Source: Streptomyces asoensis
GTDB taxonomy: Bacteria > Actinomycetota > Actinomycetes > Streptomycetales > Streptomycetaceae
DNA length: 64,000 nucleotides
NCBI RefSeq assembly: GCF_013085465.1
Contig: NZ_CP049838.1
Coordinates: forward strand, 8,370,001 to 8,434,000
Direction: 5' to 3'
Shown here: positions 5,986-52,665 of the stretch, one piece after another
Position numbering within the stretch: the stretch's first letter is position 1
Layout: every line of letters begins with the position of its first letter
The notes under the pieces: generated by a model
Told to the model about the DNA's origin: nothing
The model's database searches: none
The model's input: the letters and a program-made list of their open reading frames with translations, nothing else
Position numbers and translations under genes: made by a program

Positions 5986-6987
5986 TCAGATGTTGTAGAT
6001 GCCGGTCTTGTAGCGGGCCAGGTTGGCCGGGTCGCGGAAGAAGTCCACGGTGTCCGCGAGCCCTTCCTCCAGGGTGTGCGCGGGCTGCCAGCCGGTGGCG
6101 GCGGCGAGTCGGCTCGCGTCCGCGACCAGCCGCATCACCTCGGAGTTCGCGGGCCGCACCCGGGCCGGGTCCTCGCGGACGTCGAGCGAGGTGTCCATCA
6201 CCTTGCCGATCAGCGCGACCAGGTCACCGACCGAGATCTCCCCGCCGGTCCCGGCGTTGAAGGTGCGGCCCACCACCTGTCCGGCGGGCGCGGAGCCCAC
6301 CGAGAGGAACGCCTGCGCGGTGTCCTTGACGAAGGTGAAGTCCCGGGTGGGACGCAGGTCTCCGAGGGTGATCGTCCGTTCCCCGGCCGCCACCTGGCCG
6401 ATGACGGTCGGGATGACCGCGCGCATCGACTGCCGCGGCCCGAAGGTGTTGAACGGCCGCAGCGTCACCACCGGGGTGTCGAAGCTGGCGTGGTAGCTGT
6501 CGGCCAGCCGGTCCCCGCCCGCCTTCGAAGCGGCGTACGGGGACTGGGTGTTGATGGGATGGTCCTCGGTGATCGGCACGGTCTGCGCGGTGCCGTACGT
6601 CTCGCTGGTGGAGGTGTGCACCAGCCGGGGCGTGCCCAGCGCGCGCACCGCCTCCAGCACGTTGAGGGTGCCGGTGACATTGGTGTCCACGTAGCTGTGG
6701 GGAGCCTGGTAGGAGTACGGGATCGCGATCAGCGCGGCCAGGTGGTAGGCGACGTCGGCCCCTTCGAGCAGGCCGCGTACGGAGCCCGGGTCACGGACGT
6801 CGCCCAGGACGATCTCCACCTGGTCGAGGACGTCCGGGTGCAGGGTCTCCAGCCAGCCGTACGAGGAGAAGGAGTTGTACTGGGCCATGGCCCGCACCCG
6901 GTGTCCGGAGGCGACCAGCGCCTCGGTGAGGTGCGAGCCGATGAAACCCTCGGCTCCGGTGACGGCGGCGAGCGGTACGGAGGTCAA
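5986..6987 (-). CDS. LegB-type NAD-dependent 4,6-dehydratase of UDP-HexNAc
   Basis: 333 residues. Start is TTG 6987 with GGAAGG upstream. VTGAEGFIGSHL gives the NAD-binding site. The dehydratase-type triad region reads STSETYG, followed by YAASK (Tyr-x3-Lys). Family hallmarks of LegB (AQYNSFSSYGWLETL, HLAALIAIPYSY, ending ARYKTGIYNI) are conserved. LegB enzymes convert UDP-GlcNAc to the 4-keto-6-deoxy sugar. That would make the polymer unit derive from a 6-deoxy amino sugar rather than plain GalNAc. A different SDR activity cannot be excluded without assay. Confidence 0.82.
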   Translation of the reverse strand: MTSVPLAAVTGAEGFIGSHLTEALVASGHRVRAMAQYNSFSSYGWLETLHPDVLDQVEIVLGDVRDPGSVRGLLEGADVAYHLAALIAIPYSYQAPHSYVDTNVTGTLNVLEAVRALGTPRLVHTSTSETYGTAQTVPITEDHPINTQSPYAASKAGGDRLADSYHASFDTPVVTLRPFNTFGPRQSMRAVIPTVIGQVAAGERTITLGDLRPTRDFTFVKDTAQAFLSVGSAPAGQVVGRTFNAGTGGEISVGDLVALIGKVMDTSLDVREDPARVRPANSEVMRLVADASRLAAATGWQPAHTLEEGLADTVDFFRDPANLARYKTGIYNI

Positions 6988-44221: not shown

Positions 44222-44467
44222 ATGTATACCGACACGATTCCGACACCCGACCTCGGCTGGCAGCGGGAGGCGCTGTGCGCACAGACCGGGGCGGAGTTCT
44301 TCTTCCCCGAGCCCGGCAGCTCGGTGCGGGAGGCGAAGCGCATCTGCGGCATGTGCGAGATGCGTTCCGCCTGCCTCGAGTACGCCCTGGCCAACGACGA
44401 GCGCTTCGGCGTCTGGGGCGGCATGTCCGAGAAGGAGCGCCTGAACCTCCGGCGCCCGGCACGCTGA
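44222..44467 (+). CDS. WhiB-like iron-sulfur transcription factor
   Basis: 81 residues. Four cysteines in the Wbl pattern: Cys19 in REALCAQ and Cys42, Cys45, Cys51 in ICGMCEMRSACL, binding a 4Fe-4S cluster. The GVWGGMSEKER turn and basic tail (LNLRRPAR) follow. Wbl proteins act with the principal sigma factor in development and stress. It lies just upstream of the tRNA-like genes and the SDR-LRR pair; a regulatory link is possible but not shown. From memory, wbl genes of S. coelicolor include one in this syntenic position. Confidence 0.93.
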   Translation: MYTDTIPTPDLGWQREALCAQTGAEFFFPEPGSSVREAKRICGMCEMRSACLEYALANDERFGVWGGMSEKERLNLRRPAR

Positions 44468-44539
44468 ACCGCGCAGTCGCGGCGACCCCGAATCCGAGTG
44501 ACCGCGTCGCGGGGGTGCGGTTAGGATCCGGGGGCGTGT

Positions 44540-44612
44540 CCGGACGTAGCGCAGAGGCAGGCGCAACGCCTTGCCCAGGCGAATCACGCCGGTTCGAATC
44601 CGGTCGTCCGGA
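44540..44612 (+). tRNA. tRNA-like gene 1 (apparent anticodon GCC, Gly)
   Basis: Full cloverleaf: acceptor CCGGACG/CGTCCGG, TA at 8-9, D arm GCGC-AGAGGCAG-GCGC, anticodon arm ACGCC-TTGCCCA-GGCGA (first pair A-A), variable ATCAC, T arm GCCGG-TTCGAAT-CCGGT, discriminator A. No CCA is encoded. The anticodon would be GCC at 44573-44575, but position 37 is C rather than a purine. The D-loop lacks the usual GGTA form. It is followed 9 bp later by tRNA-like gene 2. Either a divergent tRNA or a tRNA mimic. Confidence 0.7.
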
Positions 44613-44621
44613 TGCGTGCGC

Positions 44622-44693
44622 GGTCCCGTAGAGCAGAGGCAGACTCGCCACCTTCTCAGGGTGGATACGCCGGTTCGAATCCGGTCGGGACCA
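44622..44693 (+). tRNA. tRNA-like gene 2 (apparent anticodon CTC, Glu)
   Basis: Acceptor GGTCCCG/CGGGACC, TA, D arm GAGC-AGAGGCAG-ACTC (last pair C-A), anticodon arm CCACC-TTCTCAG-GGTGG, variable ATAC, T arm GCCGG-TTCGAAT-CCGGT, discriminator A, no CCA. Anticodon CTC at 44655-44657. D-loop and T arm are identical to tRNA-like gene 1, so they are paralogues of each other rather than of housekeeping tRNA-Glu. The SDR gene starts 44 bp downstream and may share a transcript. Confidence 0.72.
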
Positions 44694-44737
44694 CGGTACG
44701 GCGAGCACGGGGCGGGGACGGGGCGGGGCGGCGACGG

Positions 44738-46102
44738 ATGGGCGAGGACAACGGAGGGGCGGCGTTCGGCCCGTCGGTCACCGACGCGGAGCTGGCCGCC
44801 TTCCACGACGTCGTGGGCAGACTGCGCGCGCTGCCCGTCGACGATCCCGTGCGGCTGCGGGCCGAGCAGGTCGCCGCGTCCTTCGCGCGTGACGGACGGC
44901 TGCGGCGGCGCAAGGGGCGGGGTGCCGAGGTGGCGGCCGCCGACGCGGCGGCGATGGCGGCGACCGCGACCGGCGCCCTGGACCGGCGCGAGGACGCGCC
45001 CCTGCCGGCCGCCGGACGCGGAGGACGTTTCCACCGGCCGCGCGCCTGCTACGTATGCAAGTCGGCCTACCAAGAGGTCGACACCTTCTATCACCGGCTC
45101 TGCCCCGACTGCGCCGCCGACAACGCCGCCCGCCGTTCGCTGAGCACCGACCTGAGCGGGCGCCGTGTCCTGCTCACCGGCGGCCGGGTGAAGATCGGCT
45201 TCCAGCTGGCGCTGATGATGCTGCGGGACGGCGCGCAGACCGTCGTCACCTCCCGTTTCCCGCACGACACCGTCCGCCGTTTCCGCGCCGAGCCCGGCAG
45301 CGGGCAGTGGCTGGACCGGCTCACCGTCGTCGCCGTCGATCTGCGCGACCCGCGCCAGGTGCTGGGCCTGTGCGAGGAGCTGCGCCGGGAGGGCGAACCG
45401 CTCGACATCCTCGTCAACAACGCGGCGCAGACCGTGCGTCGCCCGCCGGAGTCCTACGCCCTGCTGGCCGCCGGAGAGCGCGACGCACTGCCCGAGGGGA
45501 CGCGCAGGGCGCCCGGGTTCACCCCGATGCGGATGCTGGAGGGCCTCGGCGGCTCGGTCTCCGCGCTGCCCGCCGCCCTGCGGGAGGCCGACGAGGCCGG
45601 ACTGCTGCCCGATCCTTCCCCGGAGAACTCCTGGTCGGCCCGGCTCGGCGCGCTCGATCCGGCGGAGGTCCTGGAGACCCAGCTCGTCAACGCCCTCGCG
45701 CCCGCGCTGCTGTGCGACCGGCTGCTGCCGCTGCTGCTGGCCTCCCCGCATCCGCGCCGGTACGTGGTCAACGTGACGGCCGTCGAAGGCCGGTTCGCGG
45801 TGCGCAACAAGATGCCCGGGCATCCGCACACCAACATGGCCAAGGCCGCCCTCAACATGCTCACCCGCACCAGCGCGGCCGCGCTCGCCGATCAGGGTGT
45901 GCACATGTGCGCCGTCGACACCGGCTGGATCACCGACGAGAACCCGGCGCCGAAGAAGGCCCGGATGGCGGGCGCGGGCTTCCGTACCCCGCTGGACATC
46001 GTGGACGGCGCGGCCCGCGTGTACGACCCGATCGTGCGCGGTGAGGCCGGCCACCCGGTGTCGGGGGTGTTCCTCAAGGACTACCGGGAGGCGCAGTGGT
46101 GA
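44738..46102 (+). CDS. zinc-ribbon SDR protein with altered active site
   Basis: 454 residues. A charged N-terminal region, then a treble-clef/zinc-ribbon-like CYVCKSAYQEV...LCPDC (Cys104, 107, 122, 125), then a Rossmann SDR domain (about 137-450) with LLTGGRVKIGFQLAL and ILVNNAAQT. The usual YxxxK is replaced: the aligned stretch reads HTNMAKAAL, keeping Lys but with Thr for Tyr, and the Ser position reads NVTAVEG. Catalysis is therefore doubtful; NAD(P)/ligand binding may remain. Directly downstream of two tRNA-like genes and overlapping the LRR gene. Confidence 0.85.
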   Translation: MGEDNGGAAFGPSVTDAELAAFHDVVGRLRALPVDDPVRLRAEQVAASFARDGRLRRRKGRGAEVAAADAAAMAATATGALDRREDAPLPAAGRGGRFHRPRACYVCKSAYQEVDTFYHRLCPDCAADNAARRSLSTDLSGRRVLLTGGRVKIGFQLALMMLRDGAQTVVTSRFPHDTVRRFRAEPGSGQWLDRLTVVAVDLRDPRQVLGLCEELRREGEPLDILVNNAAQTVRRPPESYALLAAGERDALPEGTRRAPGFTPMRMLEGLGGSVSALPAALREADEAGLLPDPSPENSWSARLGALDPAEVLETQLVNALAPALLCDRLLPLLLASPHPRRYVVNVTAVEGRFAVRNKMPGHPHTNMAKAALNMLTRTSAAALADQGVHMCAVDTGWITDENPAPKKARMAGAGFRTPLDIVDGAARVYDPIVRGEAGHPVSGVFLKDYREAQW

Positions 46103-47304
46103 GCGAGGAGAACGCGGCGGGGCCGGAGCGGGCCGGCTTCGCCGGAGTGCCCCACGTGGTGCCCCGCCCCCTCGCCGATCTCGCCCCGCTGCTCGACTGG
46201 CTGCGGGCCGGGCGTCCGGCGGGCGAGCGGCTGGACTTCGCGGCGGGCACCGCGCTGCCCGACGGGCGGCTCGACCTGTGCAAGCAGGGCCTCGGGGCCG
46301 AGGGCGCGGCCCTGGTCGCCGAGGCCCTGGCCGACGGGCCCTCGCCCGTACGGCATCTGCTCCTCGGCACCGATGCCCTGGGGGACGACGGTGCCGCCAC
46401 CGTGGCCGGTACGAGCGCGCCGGTCGAGACGCTCTACCTCGGGTGCAACGGCATCACCGCGGGCGGCGCCTGCCGTATCGCCGACCAGCTGCGCGCCTCG
46501 CCGCAGGTGGTCACGGGGGTGTGGCTCAAGCGCAACCCGCTGGGCCGGGGCGGTGGTCGGGCGGCGGCCGAACTCATCGAGTCCGTCCGGACGTTGCGCA
46601 CGCTCGACCTCGTGCAGACCGGACTCGACGCGGCGGGCGTCACCGTACTCGCCGACGCGCTGCCGGCCGCGGCCGGCAACGGGCGGCGGGTCGAGCGGCT
46701 GTTCGTCGGCGGCAACCCGCTGGGGGAGGCGGGCGCGGAGGCGCTCGCGGCGGTGGTCGCCGCCGGGGCGATCGACGAACTGTACGTGTCCGCCGCCCGG
46801 TTGGGCGACGGCGGCGCGCTCCGAATCGCCGACGCCCTGGAGCGCGCGCCGTACGGACGGCTCACCCGGCTGTCGGTGGCCAGCAACGGCATCGGGCCCT
46901 CCGCCGCCGCCCGCCTGGTCGGCGCGGCCACCGTCGCCGGTGTCACCCTGCTGGACCTCGGCCGGGTCCGGGCGGCGGCCGTGCTCGGCGCGGTGGACAA
47001 CCGGCTGGACCTGGCGTCCGCCGAGAGCATCGGGCGGACGCTGGCGGCCGGCGAGCACCGCCTCGCCCACCTGGTCCTGCGCCACACGGGCCTGCGCAGC
47101 CGCGAGGCGCACCGCATCCTGGACCACGCGCCCCGCGCGGTCACCGCCACCCGCTTCGTCCTGGGGCAGGGCGTCGCCGCCACGGTCAAACGCCGCCTGG
47201 CGGCCCTCAGCGCCGATGTCCCGGCCCCGGCCGTCCCGCCCGACGTCGCGGCCGTACGCAGCGTGCACCGCACGGCGGCACCGGAGGCATCCGCGGAGGA
47301 CTGA
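46099..47304 (+). CDS. leucine-rich-repeat (ribonuclease-inhibitor type) protein
   Basis: 401 residues from GTG 46099 overlapping the SDR stop (GTGA); GTG 46096 is an alternative. Repeating units of about 28-30 residues such as VRHLLLGTDALGDDGAATVA, VETLYLGCNGITAGGACRIA, RRVERLFVGGNPLGEAGAEA and GRLTRLSVASNGIGPSAAAR form an RI-type LRR solenoid. No signal peptide, so cytoplasmic. RI-type LRRs usually bind proteins. It ends 24 bp from the convergent MoxR gene. Confidence 0.87.
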   Translation: MSEENAAGPERAGFAGVPHVVPRPLADLAPLLDWLRAGRPAGERLDFAAGTALPDGRLDLCKQGLGAEGAALVAEALADGPSPVRHLLLGTDALGDDGAATVAGTSAPVETLYLGCNGITAGGACRIADQLRASPQVVTGVWLKRNPLGRGGGRAAAELIESVRTLRTLDLVQTGLDAAGVTVLADALPAAAGNGRRVERLFVGGNPLGEAGAEALAAVVAAGAIDELYVSAARLGDGGALRIADALERAPYGRLTRLSVASNGIGPSAAARLVGAATVAGVTLLDLGRVRAAAVLGAVDNRLDLASAESIGRTLAAGEHRLAHLVLRHTGLRSREAHRILDHAPRAVTATRFVLGQGVAATVKRRLAALSADVPAPAVPPDVAAVRSVHRTAAPEASAED

Positions 47305-47328
47305 CGCCCCTCCGCCCGCCCCGTCCGC

Positions 47329-49164
47329 TCAGCGCCGCATCCCCGTGAACACCCCCATCCAGAACTTCTGTTGCTGCTCGGACGCCCCCACCAGGTACGT
47401 CGCCCGCAGCTTGGCCGGCAGATGGGCGACCAGGCGGGCCACCACGGCGTGATGCCTGCGCAGTTGGGACAGTTCCGCGTTGGCGAGGATCTGGTGGACG
47501 ACGTCGCTGTCGTCGCCGCCCTCGTCGGAGCGGGCGGCGGCGCGGCGCAGCCGGGCCTCCCAGGCGTCCGCGTCCCGGGCCAACTCGCGCAGACCCGTCA
47601 CGGGGCGGCCCTTCAAGCGGTCGATCAGCGCGGTCAGCGGCACCGGCGCGTACTCGCCGTCGCCGAGGTAGACCGTGGCCATCTCCAGCGGCAGCCCGCG
47701 CCGGTGCAGCTTGATCAGCCGCTCCAGGGTGCGCTTGGTGATCCAGGCGCGGCCCTCCTCGTCGATGTCGTGCTTCCACCACTCCAGCACCGTCTCGGCG
47801 TCCGCCCCGTACCGTGCCAGCAGCCACTCGTTGGCCGGGATGTCCTCCGGCGCCACCTCCAGGGAAGCCGTGAACCGGGTCGCCTGCGCGATGTTGTTGC
47901 GGGACACCAGCAGCTTGCGGCCCAGGTGGTACGGCGGATTCTGGACGGCTATCTGGGCCCGCAGGTTCTCGATCCGCTTCCCCGCCAGCGACCACTCCTG
48001 GGTGATCTCCATCAGCTTGGCGAACGCGGCCTTGTCCTTGGGCCGGTTGTACTCGTCCCACACGATCGCCTTGGGCTCGGGGCCGGTGAACTTCGCCGCG
48101 AGAAGGTTGTCCAGCGTGCCGTCCGGCGACGGCACGGGCGCGCAGAGGTCCTCGACGTTGGTCACCGGCAGCGAGAAGTACAGGGCGTCGCGCCCCAGCC
48201 CCGCGCGGACCGTCTCCCGCACCAGTTCCGTCTTGCCGCACCCGGGCGGCCCCTGGAGCAGCACCGTCCAGCGGTTGCGCAGGGCCGCGCGCACCACCTG
48301 CCGTACGGGGTCGGGAACCGTGGCCGGGTTGGCCACACCGAGCGCCTGCGCGAGCCGGTCGAGGATCTCGGCCGTGCGGTTCTGGCCGGGCCGGCCGTCC
48401 GGTCCCGGCTCGGCCAGTCGGAGCCGCTCGCCGTCGATCAGCGGCAGGCCCCAGCGCAGCGGGAACCCCTCACGGGCGTTGGCCAGGACATGGTCGAGCG
48501 TGCGCGGGGACAGCAGCTCGCGCAGAGCGGGGGAGAGCGAGGCCCACACGGCGAACACCGGACGCAGGTCCCACGGGCGGTACTTGACCGCGAGGTGCCG
48601 ACGCCACGACGTGTCGTTCGCCGAGATCCGCATCGTGACCATCCGGTCCAGCAGCGCCAGGTCGCTGCGCCGGGCCGACGTCTCCGCCTGCGACTCGTTG
48701 TCCGTGAGGAAGACGCCGACGCAGCCCAGGGCACGCAGGTCGTGCTCGCCGAGCGTCCAGTCGCAGGCGATCTGCATCAGCTGCGACTGGATGGTGTCGC
48801 CCGCCTGCAACGAGTCGTCGATGAGCAGCACGAACGGCCGGCCCGGCTTCAACTGGCTCATCACCAACTGGCGCAGCACCAGTTGACCGGAGCGCGGATC
48901 ACGTACCGGCGCGTTGACGAGCAGGTCGTCCGGGGTGAGGTTCGCCGCCGGCACGTAGACCAGCTCGGTGCCCGGGTGGGCGCGGGCGACGTGCGAGAAG
49001 AACGTCGCCGTCTTGCCGATGCCGTGCTCGCCGAAGACCTGGCCGGTCTGCCCGAGGTCGATCATCGCGTCGATGAAGCCTTCGAGGCGCGAGACCTCGC
49101 CGGGGGCCGGCCGGTCGCCGGTGTCGTGCGGGTACTCGGTCCGTGTGCTCATCCGCTCGTTCAC
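47329..49164 (-). CDS. MoxR-like protein with two AAA ATPase domains
   Basis: 611 residues. First ATPase: Walker A GEHGIGKT (45-52), Walker B FVLLIDD (111-117). Second: Walker A GPPGCGKT (305-312), Walker B AIVWDEYN (366-373). The C-terminal 150 residues are helical. Start GTG 49164 overlaps the VWA gene stop (GTGA); ATG 49152 is an alternative. MoxR AAA proteins work with VWA partners as chaperones or NTP-dependent switches; the coupled upstream gene encodes exactly such a partner. Double-AAA organisation is less common than single MoxR. Confidence 0.87.
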   Translation of the reverse strand: MNERMSTRTEYPHDTGDRPAPGEVSRLEGFIDAMIDLGQTGQVFGEHGIGKTATFFSHVARAHPGTELVYVPAANLTPDDLLVNAPVRDPRSGQLVLRQLVMSQLKPGRPFVLLIDDSLQAGDTIQSQLMQIACDWTLGEHDLRALGCVGVFLTDNESQAETSARRSDLALLDRMVTMRISANDTSWRRHLAVKYRPWDLRPVFAVWASLSPALRELLSPRTLDHVLANAREGFPLRWGLPLIDGERLRLAEPGPDGRPGQNRTAEILDRLAQALGVANPATVPDPVRQVVRAALRNRWTVLLQGPPGCGKTELVRETVRAGLGRDALYFSLPVTNVEDLCAPVPSPDGTLDNLLAAKFTGPEPKAIVWDEYNRPKDKAAFAKLMEITQEWSLAGKRIENLRAQIAVQNPPYHLGRKLLVSRNNIAQATRFTASLEVAPEDIPANEWLLARYGADAETVLEWWKHDIDEEGRAWITKRTLERLIKLHRRGLPLEMATVYLGDGEYAPVPLTALIDRLKGRPVTGLRELARDADAWEARLRRAAARSDEGGDDSDVVHQILANAELSQLRRHHAVVARLVAHLPAKLRATYLVGASEQQQKFWMGVFTGMRR

Positions 49165-50567
49165 CGCGATCCTGTGGTGACGCGATGGCAGTCCATCGCC
49201 GGTGTGTGGGTCTCGGGCCACTCGTGGCCCCCTTCGGTGATCAGCCAGATCCAGCGGTCCGGCTCGGCCGGGGTGATCGGCGGCGCGTAGCCGTCGGTGA
49301 GGACGACGACCGCGTCCGGACGCTCGTCGAAACGGCGCCCGTTCACCTCCGTGCGGCCCTCCACATGGTCGGCGACCGCCTGGAAGCTCGTGCCGCCGCC
49401 CCCGTACACACGCTCGCCGGGTCTGAAGGGCATGACCACGCCGTCGAAGGACAGCCAGTGCGCCTCGACGCCGTCGATCCGGCCGACCAGCTCGGTGAGC
49501 CAGTGGACGACGTGGTGCGGCATCGACCCCGAGGTGTCGTAGGCGATCACCAGGACCTTGTCGCGGACCGGGCCGCGCCGCGCCAGCATCGGGTCCTGGC
49601 CGAGTGCGGCGAGCAGGGCGCCCCGCTTCTTGGGGTAGACCAGCCGCTCGCCGTCACGCAGCTTCGAGCCGAGCACGTCGACCAGCCAGCGCTGCCACCA
49701 GTCGACCGTGCGCGTGCGCGTGGTCCCGCCGCGCAGCGTGCCGGCGCCCAGCCTGCCCCACAGCCGGGCGGCCCGCGCCGAGTCGCCCTCCGTGCGGCCC
49801 ATGAGGTCGAGCAGCTCCCGCTCGGCGCCCGCGTGCCCGCGCCGGGCCGCCAGCAGGGAGTTGAGCAGGGCGGAGGACGTCACCGCGTCGACGGTCTCCT
49901 GGTCGGCGGGGACCGCGCCGGCCCCCAGGTGCACGCACAGCCGCTCCTCGGGCACGGGCGGGTGGCGCATGCGCTTCAGCTCGCCGTACACGCGCGTGTC
50001 GGTCCGCGTGAACGTCCCGTACGACACCGGCTCCAGCCCGTGTGCCGTCAGGTCCTCGACGTACAGCTCGTGGACCTGACGGGGGTCGACCCCCGTCGGG
50101 CGGCCGTTCAGCAGCGGCAGTTCCTCACGGCCCAGCCGCACCAGGGCCACATGGTTGATGGACACCTCGGCGGCCAGCTCGAACACCGGATCCTCGCGCA
50201 GCTCCGGCTCGGCGAGCAGATGCCGGTGCACGAGGTGCCGGGCCTCGTGGAACAGGACGAACTTGACGCCGTCCAGGCCCAGTCCGACGAAGAAGTCCGG
50301 GTTGTACAGCAGCAGGCAGGTGCCGTCGCCGGAGGCGACCACGGCCGCCGTGTCCACCGCCGTCGTCGGGATCTGGTGATGGCACTTGGTGTACAGCCAG
50401 GACGCCACCGCCGACTCGGTCAGCCCGAAGTCCAGCAGGGCGGCTTCCTTCAGCTGCCGCGCCCGGGCGACCACCTCGGGCTCCGCGGGGCGGTACGCCT
50501 CCAGTGCCCTGCGGTCGGCCAGGTCGACCACGGGCGGACGCCGCCGCCCTCGCTCCCCGTACCCCAT
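49161..50567 (-). CDS. DUF2201 metallopeptidase-like / VWA domain protein
   Basis: 468 residues. N-terminal zincin-like domain (about 30-150) with HEARH (107-111), a possible zinc-binding HExxH, followed by a helical part and a C-terminal VWA-like domain with MIDAS residues DTSGS (344-348), GGTSF (391-395) and LTDGY (423-427). This DUF2201 architecture is a usual partner of MoxR ATPases. ATG 50567 is preceded by a G-rich tract; the frame is open further upstream. Tightly coupled to the MoxR gene. tRNA-like gene 3 lies about 100 bp upstream on the opposite strand. Confidence 0.88.
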   Translation of the reverse strand: MGYGERGRRRPPVVDLADRRALEAYRPAEPEVVARARQLKEAALLDFGLTESAVASWLYTKCHHQIPTTAVDTAAVVASGDGTCLLLYNPDFFVGLGLDGVKFVLFHEARHLVHRHLLAEPELREDPVFELAAEVSINHVALVRLGREELPLLNGRPTGVDPRQVHELYVEDLTAHGLEPVSYGTFTRTDTRVYGELKRMRHPPVPEERLCVHLGAGAVPADQETVDAVTSSALLNSLLAARRGHAGAERELLDLMGRTEGDSARAARLWGRLGAGTLRGGTTRTRTVDWWQRWLVDVLGSKLRDGERLVYPKKRGALLAALGQDPMLARRGPVRDKVLVIAYDTSGSMPHHVVHWLTELVGRIDGVEAHWLSFDGVVMPFRPGERVYGGGGTSFQAVADHVEGRTEVNGRRFDERPDAVVVLTDGYAPPITPAEPDRWIWLITEGGHEWPETHTPAMDCHRVTTGSR

Positions 50568-50668
50568 GTCGAGCCCCCCGTGCCCTATTTGCCGTGCTTC
50601 CCCCAGTGGCTCATTGGTACCAGGCCCCACCGACAACGGGCCAAGGCATTACGCTCTGGGGCAAGGGC

Positions 50669-50741
50669 GGGGTCGTAGCGCAGAGGCAGCCGCACCGGTC
50701 TCCAAAACTGGATCACGCTGGTTCGAATCCAGCCGCCCCGC
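50669..50741 (+). tRNA. tRNA-like gene 3 (apparent anticodon CCA, Trp)
   Basis: D arm GCGC-AGAGGCAG-CCGC, anticodon arm CCGGT-CTCCAAA-ACTGG, variable ATCAC, T arm GCTGG-TTCGAAT-CCAGC. Anticodon CCA at 50702-50704. The acceptor GGGGTCG against CGCCCC pairs only with a bulged T, and pairing then extends beyond the normal end (GGGCGGGG with CCCCGCCC). The D-loop is identical to tRNA-like genes 1 and 2, 6 kb away. No CCA is encoded. It lies between divergently oriented module genes. Confidence 0.65.
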
Positions 50742-50761
50742 CCCCCTCGACACCCGGTGCC

Positions 50762-51604
50762 TCAGGCGATCGCGCCCGCCGTCACGACGAGTTCCGGCGC
50801 CGTCCCGTGGAACGTGTCGATGAGCTGCGCCAGCACCGCCCAGGCCTCCTCGCGCCCGCCCAGGTGGTCCCGCACGAGCGGGCGCAGGGCGTCCTCGGCC
50901 TCGCGGACCCGGGCCGGGAACATGACATGGCCCAGGGAGAGCACCTCCAGGACCCGGGAGGCCGGACCGTGGGCCGTCGCGTACTGGGCCGGGCTGTCGA
51001 GGACGCCCGCCTGTCGCAGCCGGTGCGTGAACTTGGGGTGCGAGCCGAACCGGGCGCGCAGCGCGGGCGGGCAGTCCGGGCGCACCGACAGCGCCCAGCG
51101 CGGGTAACCGGGCAGCGCGAACTCGTCGTGGGCCGCGCCGACCGTCGCCCAGTCGCCCCGGGTCAGCACCATGGACGCGGCCGCGCGGGCGGCGGGCATG
51201 GAGTTCGCCTTGCGCAGGGCGCCGACGAGGCCGTACCGGACGTAGCTCTCGGGGATGTCGGGTTCCTGCCGCTCGTGGATCGAGCGCACCGCCAGGGGCT
51301 TCGTGCGCCCGGGGCCGAACGGCACCCCGCGGGCGAGGGCCCGGCGCAGACCGAGGTCGTTGCCGACGAAGCGCCACACGACGGCGTTCAGCGCGGGGTC
51401 GTCCTGCTCCAGGACCCAGAGCACCACCGAGGCGGGCGCGGTGGGCCAGGTCCACGCGCGGTTCAGCCTGCGCTGGATCGTGGCCGCGTTCTCGGCGGTG
51501 GCCGGGGGCAGACCGATGCGCGCCCGGATCCGGTCGGCGGTGTCCTCGTCGGTCAGCCCGAGCAGGAAGCCGACCGCCTGCTGGACCGTGTCACTGTCAC
51601 CCAT
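50762..51604 (-). CDS. uncharacterised 280-residue protein next to tRNA-like gene 3
   Basis: 280 residues, mainly alpha-helical, no signal peptide or TM segment, no family recognised. Notable segments are FLLGLTDEDTADRIRARIG near the start, SIHERQEPDIPESYVRYGLV in the middle and HPKFTHRLRQAGVLDSPAQY later; helix pairs could be HEAT-like. The stop is 20 bp from the 3' end of tRNA-like gene 3, which is on the opposite strand. It may belong to the same module as the MoxR-VWA pair. ATG 51604. Confidence 0.65.
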   Translation of the reverse strand: MGDSDTVQQAVGFLLGLTDEDTADRIRARIGLPPATAENAATIQRRLNRAWTWPTAPASVVLWVLEQDDPALNAVVWRFVGNDLGLRRALARGVPFGPGRTKPLAVRSIHERQEPDIPESYVRYGLVGALRKANSMPAARAAASMVLTRGDWATVGAAHDEFALPGYPRWALSVRPDCPPALRARFGSHPKFTHRLRQAGVLDSPAQYATAHGPASRVLEVLSLGHVMFPARVREAEDALRPLVRDHLGGREEAWAVLAQLIDTFHGTAPELVVTAGAIA

Positions 51605-51690: not shown

Positions 51691-52665
51691 TCAGCCGGCC
51701 GCCCGTGCCGCCATCCGGGCCTTGCGCGCCGCCAGCTTCTCGTCGAACTTGGACGCCTCCGAGTCGAGGCCGCCCATGTACAGGCCGATCTCCTCCTGCG
51801 CCTTCTGCCCCTCGGGGCCGAGACCGTCGACCTCCATGACCTTCAGGAAGCGCAGCACGGGCTGGATGACGTCGTCGTGGTGGATGCGCAGGTTGTAGAC
51901 CTCGCCGATCGCCATCTGCGCGGCGAACCGCTCGAAGCCGGGCATGCCGTGACCGGGCATGCGGAAGTTGACGAGGACGTCGCGCACGGCCTGCATGGTC
52001 AGGTCGGGGGCCAGCTCGAAGGCGGCCTTCAGGAGGTTGCGGTAGAAGACCATGTGCAGGTTCTCGTCGGTCGCGATGCGCGCCAGCATGCGGTCGCAGA
52101 CCGGGTCGCCCGACTGGTGGCCGGTGTTGCGGTGCGAGACGCGGGTGGCCAGCTCCTGGAAGGCGACGTAGGCGACCGAGTGCAGCATCGAGTGCCGGTT
52201 GTCGGACTCGAAGCCCTCGCTCATGTGGGACATGCGGAACTGCTCCAGCTTGTCCGGGTCCACCGCGCGCGAGGCGAGCAGGTAGTCGCGCATCACGATG
52301 CCGTGCCGGCCCTCCTCGGCCGTCCAGCGGTGCACCCAGGTGCCCCAGGCGCCGTCCCGGCCGAAGAGCGAGGCGATCTCGTGGTGGTAGCTGGGCAGGT
52401 TGTCCTCGGTGAGCAGGTTCACGACGAGCGCGATCCGGCCGATCTCGGTGACCTTGGACTGCCCCTTCTCCCAGGCCTCGCCGTCCTCGAAGAAGCCGGG
52501 GAAGTTGCGGCCGTCGCTCCACGGCACGTACTCGTGGGGCATCCAGTCCTTGGTGACCTTCAGGTGCCGGTTGAGTTCCGTCTCGACCACTTCCTCCAGC
52601 GCGTGCAGCAGCTTGGCGTCGGTCCAGACGGCGGGGCTACCGAGGTGAGGGGAGGTGATCGTCAC
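51691..52665 (-). CDS. acyl-[ACP] delta-9-type fatty acid desaturase
   Basis: 324 residues from GTG 52665 with CTGGAG upstream. Soluble ferritin-like diiron desaturase: LLTEDNLPSYHHE, WTAEEGRHGIVMRDY and IATDENLHMVFYRNL supply the Glu/His ligands. It introduces a double bond into acyl-ACP with O2 and ferredoxin. Monocistronic. Three 12-bp dyads in the promoter (52723-52764) indicate repression by a TetR-type regulator, which is how such genes are usually tuned to fatty-acid status. Confidence 0.92.
   Translation of the reverse strand: MTITSPHLGSPAVWTDAKLLHALEEVVETELNRHLKVTKDWMPHEYVPWSDGRNFPGFFEDGEAWEKGQSKVTEIGRIALVVNLLTEDNLPSYHHEIASLFGRDGAWGTWVHRWTAEEGRHGIVMRDYLLASRAVDPDKLEQFRMSHMSEGFESDNRHSMLHSVAYVAFQELATRVSHRNTGHQSGDPVCDRMLARIATDENLHMVFYRNLLKAAFELAPDLTMQAVRDVLVNFRMPGHGMPGFERFAAQMAIGEVYNLRIHHDDVIQPVLRFLKVMEVDGLGPEGQKAQEEIGLYMGGLDSEASKFDEKLAARKARMAARAAG

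Follow-up and report, generated by a model that had tools for sequence, protein, structure and literature searches.

Do the three tRNA-like genes of one Streptomyces asoensis locus supply translation, or do they belong to the protein genes between which they lie? The window analysed here, a stretch of 64 000 nucleotides at 8.37-8.43 Mb of the single 10.04-Mb contig NZ_CP049838.1, was initially annotated from its sequence as carrying three tRNA-like genes with apparent anticodons GCC, CTC and CCA that flank a protein module, the products being either "specialised tRNAs or tRNA mimics". ARAGORN gives the genes with these anticodons, Rfam agrees on the genes, and the choice offered still holds. 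The flanking of a protein module was likewise seen correctly, while the constancy of the partnership, the likeness of the anticodon arms to those of host tRNAs and a second, paralogous module went unnoticed there. We consider it very probable that the RNAs are the RNA component of a module formed by an SDR-fold protein, a leucine-rich repeat (LRR) protein, an AAA+ protein and a VWA protein, and not housekeeping tRNAs, because a single scaffold carries swapped anticodon arms, promoter-like boxes accompany the genes, the genes are linked to the LRR gene, and they are lost or decay along with the module.

Three tRNA-like genes outside the housekeeping set

Exactly three tRNA genes were found in the window by ARAGORN, with concordant Rfam RF00005 matches, and were called as Gly(GCC) at 44539-44613, Glu(CTC) at 44622-44694 and Trp(CCA) at 50667-50744. 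With the general rules of tRNA identity and numbering, they are described as follows:

44540..44612, + strand: tRNA-like gene 1, anticodon GCC, Gly-type arm, with C37 and an A27.A43 mismatch
44622..44693, + strand: tRNA-like gene 2, anticodon CTC, Glu-type arm, with A73
50669..50741, + strand: tRNA-like gene 3, anticodon CCA, Trp-type arm, acceptor reaching about 50667-50742 with a bulged U

The C at position 37 and the A-A mismatch of gene 1, as well as the over-long, bulged acceptor of gene 3, had been pointed out before and were found again, the bulge being an unpaired U. In gene 1, pairing of T44539 (position -1) with A73 can extend the acceptor to 8 bp, and the acceptor of gene 3 has, from the sequence, 8 pairs around the bulge, or 5/7 pairs in the 7-bp register. 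The motifs TA-GNGC-AGAGGCAG and TTCGAAT, reported as common to the genes, are present in all three. None has the host-type D arm, each showing instead an extra D-stem base and the AGAGGCAG loop; the unusual D-loop of the initial annotation was therefore real, with the amendment that one extra variable base lies between the G paired to C13 and position 23. The discriminator of gene 1 is A as against U in the host, that of gene 2 is A as in the host, and that of gene 3, the 3' end of which is uncertain, is C as against G. An encoded CCA is indeed missing from all three genes, which is no oddity, since only 10 of the 72 other tRNAs of the genome (counted by eye) encode it. Single-sequence minimum-energy folds of genes 1, 2 and 3 were stable (z -3.3, -2.5 and -1.6); those of genes 1 and 3 lacked a clean cloverleaf in the middle, and the cloverleaf assignment thus relies on the alignment described below.

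The RF00005 scores of genes 1, 2 and 3 (50.5, 52.8 and 40.8 bits) all exceed the cut-off of 29. They are low for this genome, ranking 6th, 13th and 2nd from the bottom among its 75 RF00005 tRNA matches. The genes do not replace missing housekeeping tRNAs, as other isoacceptors with the same anticodons are encoded elsewhere (Gly-GCC three times, Glu-CTC three times and Trp-CCA once), so that codon reading has no need of them.

A conserved scaffold with its own promoter-like boxes

The family was collected by a D-arm motif scan of genome contigs combined with ARAGORN, and its members are given among the matches listed, not as a census; many of the D-arm motif matches are chance hits or initiator-like tRNAs. 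Related genes occurred in Streptomyces, Kitasatospora, Amycolatopsis, Lentzea, Murinocardiopsis and Actinospica. The family is thus conserved in several actinobacterial genera, which had been proposed as a check. Of the outcomes named beforehand as refuting the initial annotation, neither a lack of conservation nor high scores as isoacceptors that make up for absent housekeeping tRNAs was seen. The Actinospica member (L117:5017-5094, - strand) has an anticodon loop several bases larger. The same AGAGGCAG D loop was also seen in initiator-like tRNAs of other bacterial groups (L025, L082, L084, L110 and L114).

When 29 sequences from the window and 13 further loci were aligned, the D and T arms hardly varied, in contrast to the anticodon arm and the acceptor. 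In this alignment 93.2% of the cells in paired positions were paired and 15 of 21 pairs had changed on both sides, a result equalled by none of 500 shuffles; judging from these sequences, the cloverleaf is maintained by compensatory changes. The D-arm pairs 10-25, 11-24, 12-23 and C13-G were present in 29/29, and the 3' strand of the D stem holds a single additional unpaired base; the D arm would have a bulged stem, or else a stem of 3 bp and a loop of 8 nt. A family covariance model scored the window genes, which are training members, at 83-87 bits as against 63.3 bits for the best other tRNA of the genome, and gave 64-86 bits to members of the same type (type A) from G208, G216, G252, G261 and G269, all outside the training set. 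Types B to D, described below, scored 62-83 bits, and because of this overlap with 63.3 bits the model alone cannot part the outer subfamilies from ordinary tRNAs. The window genes belong to a large tRNA-like family that lies outside the housekeeping set.

Two boxes of the -10 type precede the window genes:

44522..44527, + strand: -10-like box TAGGAT, 18 nt before gene 1
50650..50655, + strand: -10-like box TACGCT, 19 nt before gene 3

A TANNNT box starting 15-23 nt before position 1 was present in 46 of 52 family upstream regions, as against 0-1 of 52 in equal windows further upstream and at most 6 in shuffles. These 52 were drawn from 65 genes; those that immediately follow another family gene, duplicates among the upstream regions and loci too close to an end were set aside. 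A stricter promoter scan reported no box near the window genes, TAGGAT and TACGCT included. From the TANNNT boxes, many family genes look like separate transcription units, and the RNA genes would be expressed.

These observations bear on two simpler explanations. Decaying tRNA copies left by integrating elements might account for some solitary members that lie near other tRNA genes (L186, L188 and L190); the compensatory changes in 15/21 pairs, the -10-like boxes and the conservation in several genera speak against such an origin, which was already disfavoured and which we regard as extremely improbable. Additional elongator tRNAs of the ordinary kind, called upon under certain conditions, would fit RF00005 scores above the gathering score and the T33 and A37 of most type A arms. 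This is very unlikely in view of the host isoacceptors, the odd D arm in 29/29 sequences, the C37 and A.A mismatch of gene 1, and the linkage to the LRR gene with loss or decay along with the module, to which we now turn.

Linkage of the RNA genes to a protein module

The proteins encoded around the three genes are as follows, all but the WhiB-family regulator making up module A:

44222..44467, + strand: WhiB-family regulator, upstream of gene 1
44738..46102, + strand: SDR-fold protein with an N-terminal CxxC...CxxC ribbon (zinc ribbon)
46096..47304, + strand: LRR protein of the ribonuclease-inhibitor type
47329..49164, - strand: AAA+ protein with two Walker A motifs (from the translation) and a MoxR-like AAA_5 match
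49161..50531, - strand: metallopeptidase-like/VWA protein with a DUF2201-type domain, HExxH kept, and a VWA-like part
50762..51604, - strand: helical protein of 280 aa adjoining the Trp-type RNA gene, with no Pfam match in the window

The LRR gene, detected with profile A2, was present in 61 of 392 Streptomyces genomes. The RNA motif was found in all 61 of these as compared with 64 of the 331 genomes without LRR (Fisher 1.3e-36, kinship ignored). In 60 of the 61 an RNA gene shared the contig of the LRR gene and lay no more than about 5 kb from it, the sole exception being G588, where the LRR and RNA genes are on different contigs. The RNA gene stood just upstream of the LRR gene in 29 of 30 loci that were fetched, counting both strands, the other 31 genomes being judged by positions. 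Across the class sample the LRR gene occurred in 14 of 296 genomes, and a tRNA-like gene was at the locus in 14/14, 13 of them identified by the RNA motif and one (G291) by ARAGORN.

The remaining proteins of the module recur as well. By tblastn with the SDR, LRR, AAA, VWA and helical proteins, one or more of them lay beside family genes in 15/15 loci, among the matches listed (L004, L008, L016, L017, L022, L023, L027, L032, L038, L060, L061, L064, L086, L087 and L117; 8 kb per locus, 4.7 kb for L087). The fullest order, seen in the window and in L166, runs from one to three variable RNA genes through SDR and LRR to AAA and VWA on the opposite strand, followed by the Trp-type RNA gene and the helical protein. 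The Trp-type slot reads GCA in one Streptomyces (G661) and in one Amycolatopsis (L016); the Amycolatopsis gene (L016:2765-2836, + strand), next to the helical protein, has a 6-nt anticodon loop and was called "gc" by ARAGORN. The WhiB-family regulator is probably mere context, as it is kept in loci that have lost the RNAs.

The LRR profile matched mammalian ribonuclease inhibitor (2.6e-37) and NLR-type repeats too, and relatives are named "ribonuclease inhibitor" in many NCBI records. The metallopeptidase/VWA protein has its metallopeptidase-like domain at the N-terminus and its VWA-like part at the C-terminus; its VWA-like (DUF2201) match reached 16.7 bits in module A, below the 26.4 cut-off, and a clear 69.6 bits in module B (below). 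The structure model of the helical protein was all-helical (mean pLDDT 77.8), comparison with the PDB gave no convincing match, and the named relatives among the 120 matches listed were "hypothetical" or "uncharacterized". By alignment, the SDR protein appears to have Thr where the Tyr of YxxxK is expected. An SDR paralogue is encoded in the same genome (G000:C1:8762816-8764240, + strand; 514.7 bits), and this lower-scoring paralogue is widespread in the class, at 509-588 bits apart from two fragments. Beyond the helical gene, an Rfam ASdes match (52247-52314, + strand; 69.5 bits) lies antisense within a fatty acid desaturase gene (51691-52665, - strand) and probably reflects conservation of the coding sequence.

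Loss and decay of the RNA genes along with the module

The module-type SDR, defined by more than 600 bits, was present in 16 genomes of the class sample, which allowed the fate of the RNA genes to be followed where the module is incomplete. In 11 of the 16 the RNA genes were called intact, and each of these genomes keeps at least one of LRR, AAA, VWA and helical at the locus. In the other five (G018, G173, G182 at 0.88 Mb, G234 and G243) the SDR gene had none of these four proteins within 18 kb, and ARAGORN called no tRNA at these five SDR-only loci. G182 has module B elsewhere, and G018, G173, G234 and G243 have no LRR in the genome. At G018 the surrounding gene order is kept and the block from LRR to helical is missing; two ruined RNA copies, scoring 35.0 and 27.1 bits where intact genes score at least 62.1, lie between WhiB and SDR. 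G261, which has LRR, SDR and two intact RNA genes, also carries a third, ruined copy (27.5 bits). The strongest evidence that the RNAs work for the module comes from the linkage and from what appears, in these sequences, to be a natural decay series.

Anticodon arms, acceptors and the question of charging

Type A anticodons comprised GCC, CCC and TCC (Gly), CTC (Glu), GGC, CGC and TGC (Ala), GTC and ATC (Asp), GAC (Val), GCT (Ser), GCA (Cys) and CCA (Trp). The likeness of the arms to host tRNAs was assessed for 56 of 59 distinct arms, after leaving out two of irregular register and one ATC arm without a host isoacceptor. Over 14 non-anticodon positions the arms were nearer to the host tRNA of the same anticodon (mean rank 8.4 of 44), with a class mean of 9.06 as against 6.57 (sd 0.49), which none of 2000 permutations reached. 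For the outer stem alone the figure was 1/2000, or 10/2000 without Trp. Three complete 17-nt arms were identical to the host Glu, Ala and Asp arms, and the likeness was weak for Gly and Val. The acceptors of 43 of the 65 genes were compared in the same way; in both tests related sequences are taken as independent and the host tRNAs come from one genome. The U73 of host Gly and Cys tRNAs was found in 0/5 Gly-type and 0/4 Cys-type family genes.

Such arms could belong to aminoacyl donors, that is, RNAs charged with Trp as well as with Gly, Ala, Glu, Asp, Val, Ser or Cys, which together with the SDR protein would serve to make a peptide or a modification outside the ribosome. The narrow anticodon set, with C at position 36 in 37 of the 56 distinct arms, and the presence of SDR in many loci agree with this, and a weak likeness of the acceptors to those of the matching host tRNAs (16/2000 permutations) argues for charging. 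The missing U73 argues against it, the discriminator being unlike that of host Gly and Cys tRNAs and, in 8 of 10 cases, unlike that of host Trp tRNA (the Trp-type 3' end is uncertain). The module proteins scanned matched no enzyme that uses aminoacyl-tRNA; SDR is also present in five loci without intact RNAs and missing from some module B loci. We therefore regard charging for such a purpose as unlikely.

A second module and solitary subfamilies

A class-wide motif search of the 296 genomes revealed further subfamilies. Type B RNA genes lie directly upstream of a paralogous LRR gene, the product of which is 40-45% identical to the window LRR protein, and in this module B genes for an ankyrin protein, for an AAA_5 protein of the MoxR type and for a DUF2201/VWA protein come after the LRR gene, while SDR may be present or not. 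The type B anticodon arm is not that of a normal tRNA, two examples folding by minimum energy as a long stem with a tiny loop. The upstream regions carry TATGAT (12/14) or TAGGAT (2/14) at about the same distance.

Solitary genes, at 27 loci, comprise types C (Ala/Val/Asp/Gly-like) and D (Trp-like) and a few others, and have no universal neighbour; among the system proteins only ankyrin (L194) and a weak WhiB (L183) were matched. At L194 a Cys-GCA mimic (6068-6143, + strand) stands directly before a module-B-like ankyrin protein, with no other module protein in 13 kb. Several neighbour genes are common to L151, L157 and L192, and one small gene to L185, L186 and L190. Type C (L175-L182, L151, L157 and L158), found in many Streptomyces, has the loop A-Y-N-N-C-A-T and the anticodons AGC, GAC, GTC, ATC, GGC and GCC. 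Type D consists of Trp-CCA mimics (L183-L190, L150, L153 and L154). As type D is commoner in genomes with a type B LRR (13/37) than in others (21/355) or in those with a type A LRR (1/24; Fisher, kinship ignored, genome classes assigned by eye), it may be the missing Trp partner of type B.

Relation to known RNA-protein systems

Ro60/Rsr is a VWA-bearing protein that has Y RNA as its partner and is encoded next to the tRNA-mimicking YrlA. The loci described here resemble it in that a tRNA-like RNA is encoded beside a VWA protein. In contrast to YrlA, the RNAs have the look of complete tRNA mimics that stand by themselves and vary in their anticodons, and no TROVE domain, the domain of Ro60, was matched among the module proteins scanned. 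By analogy with Y RNA and Ro60, the RNAs could be structural or gating parts of an AAA+/VWA machine, the arm differing only because the surface on which it docks varies. The adjoining VWA-domain protein, the nearly invariant D and T arms and the non-tRNA loop geometry of type B are in keeping with this. Set against the lack of a TROVE match, the correspondence between arms and host tRNAs that it leaves unexplained, and the RNA genes that G261 and G269 keep without AAA or VWA at the locus, a gating role seems distinctly unlikely. The window LRR protein resembles ribonuclease inhibitor and other RNI-type LRR proteins by profile, the match resting on the repeats, and we know of no RNase target of the module LRR.

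The pseudo-tRNA tRNA-Other of Bacillus cereus is reported to have a Trp anticodon, to be poorly charged, to stay off polysomes and to act outside translation; the single gene lies at an island, where it is reported to belong to a longer regulatory RNA (PMC3399842). Compared by description only, it resembles the window family in being a tRNA-like RNA with a Trp anticodon and differs from it in that the passages on it describe neither anticodon swapping nor LRR, AAA or VWA partners (PMC3399842). The MoxR-vWA ternary conflict systems of multicellular prokaryotes, actinobacteria included, are described as combining a MoxR-type AAA+ protein and a vWA protein with a variable third component (VMAP, iSTAND or TERNS3) and effector domains (PMC7159879, PMC8195603). 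Both modules A and B are similar to them in having an AAA_5 protein that adjoins a VWA protein. In contrast, no effector lies C-terminal to a vWA domain here, the VWA-like part itself being C-terminal. The Pfam scan of module proteins showed no match to VMAP, iSTAND or TERNS3. A search for the term "tRNA" gave no hit in PMC8195603 and a single one, within the title of a reference, in PMC7159879; DUF2201 is not mentioned in the latter. No description of the tRNA-like family was found in the titles and abstract openings among the matches listed from the open PubMed Central library, a scope that leaves out most subscription papers; within that scope the RNA-protein system of these soil bacteria appears to be undescribed.

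A possible role as decoys or sensor ligands

The link between the RNAs and the module is strong; the mechanism is what we infer from it. Our confidence is evenly balanced for the explanation that we favour as a whole, namely that the RNAs are non-translational tRNA mimics and RNA parts of the module, likely as decoys or sensor ligands. The step to anticodon-arm decoys or sensor ligands, taken separately, is tentative. Copies of host anticodon arms would be displayed on a scaffold that takes no part in translation, and the LRR protein, perhaps with the helical protein, would hold the RNAs. A hostile factor, for example an anticodon nuclease, would bind or cut the anticodon arm, and this would release or activate the pair of AAA+ protein and VWA-metallopeptidase. 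A decoy or sensor role would explain why the arms track host tRNAs and are swapped between species, and why the partner is regularly of the ribonuclease-inhibitor type.

Several findings weigh against this explanation. Repeats of the ribonuclease-inhibitor type are common to many proteins. The searches turned up no nuclease, no effector and no link to phages; the matches given by PADLOC were confined to weak ones for AAA and ankyrin, and no LRR was present in the collections of phages and plasmids searched. Most type A arms look capable of decoding (T33 in 53/56, A37 in 40/56), and the acceptors are somewhat like those of the matching host tRNAs (7.52 as against 6.42; 16/2000 permutations). 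The 64 of 331 genomes that have the RNA motif without LRR, many of them through solitary types C and D, also count against it; this is an upper count, because the motif matches ordinary tRNAs as well (e.g. in G418, G422 and G390). At individual loci, G261 has intact RNA genes with no AAA, VWA or helical in 16 kb, and G208 has four RNA genes with AAA, VWA and helical kept and no LRR. G269, the genome of which contains no LRR, has SDR and helical next to two RNA genes, of which one has 3/7 acceptor pairs; neither AAA nor VWA lies in the 16 kb fetched.

More doubtful than the decoy or sensor step is its extension to a surveillance system with swappable decoys, in which the cell would show its own vulnerable arms, the LRR protein would watch them, and the AAA+ protein and VWA metallopeptidase would act upon nuclease attack. 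If this were true, the choice of anticodons would record which tRNAs are under attack. Definite predictions follow, namely that the LRR protein binds the RNAs and that an anticodon nuclease cuts them. Since ARAGORN names the genes ordinary Gly, Glu and Trp tRNAs, they can distort tRNA inventories. The system would be one of whole tRNA mimics with exchangeable anticodon arms dedicated to a protein machine, and the family, through gain, swap and decay, offers a natural experiment on how cells might detect tRNA damage.

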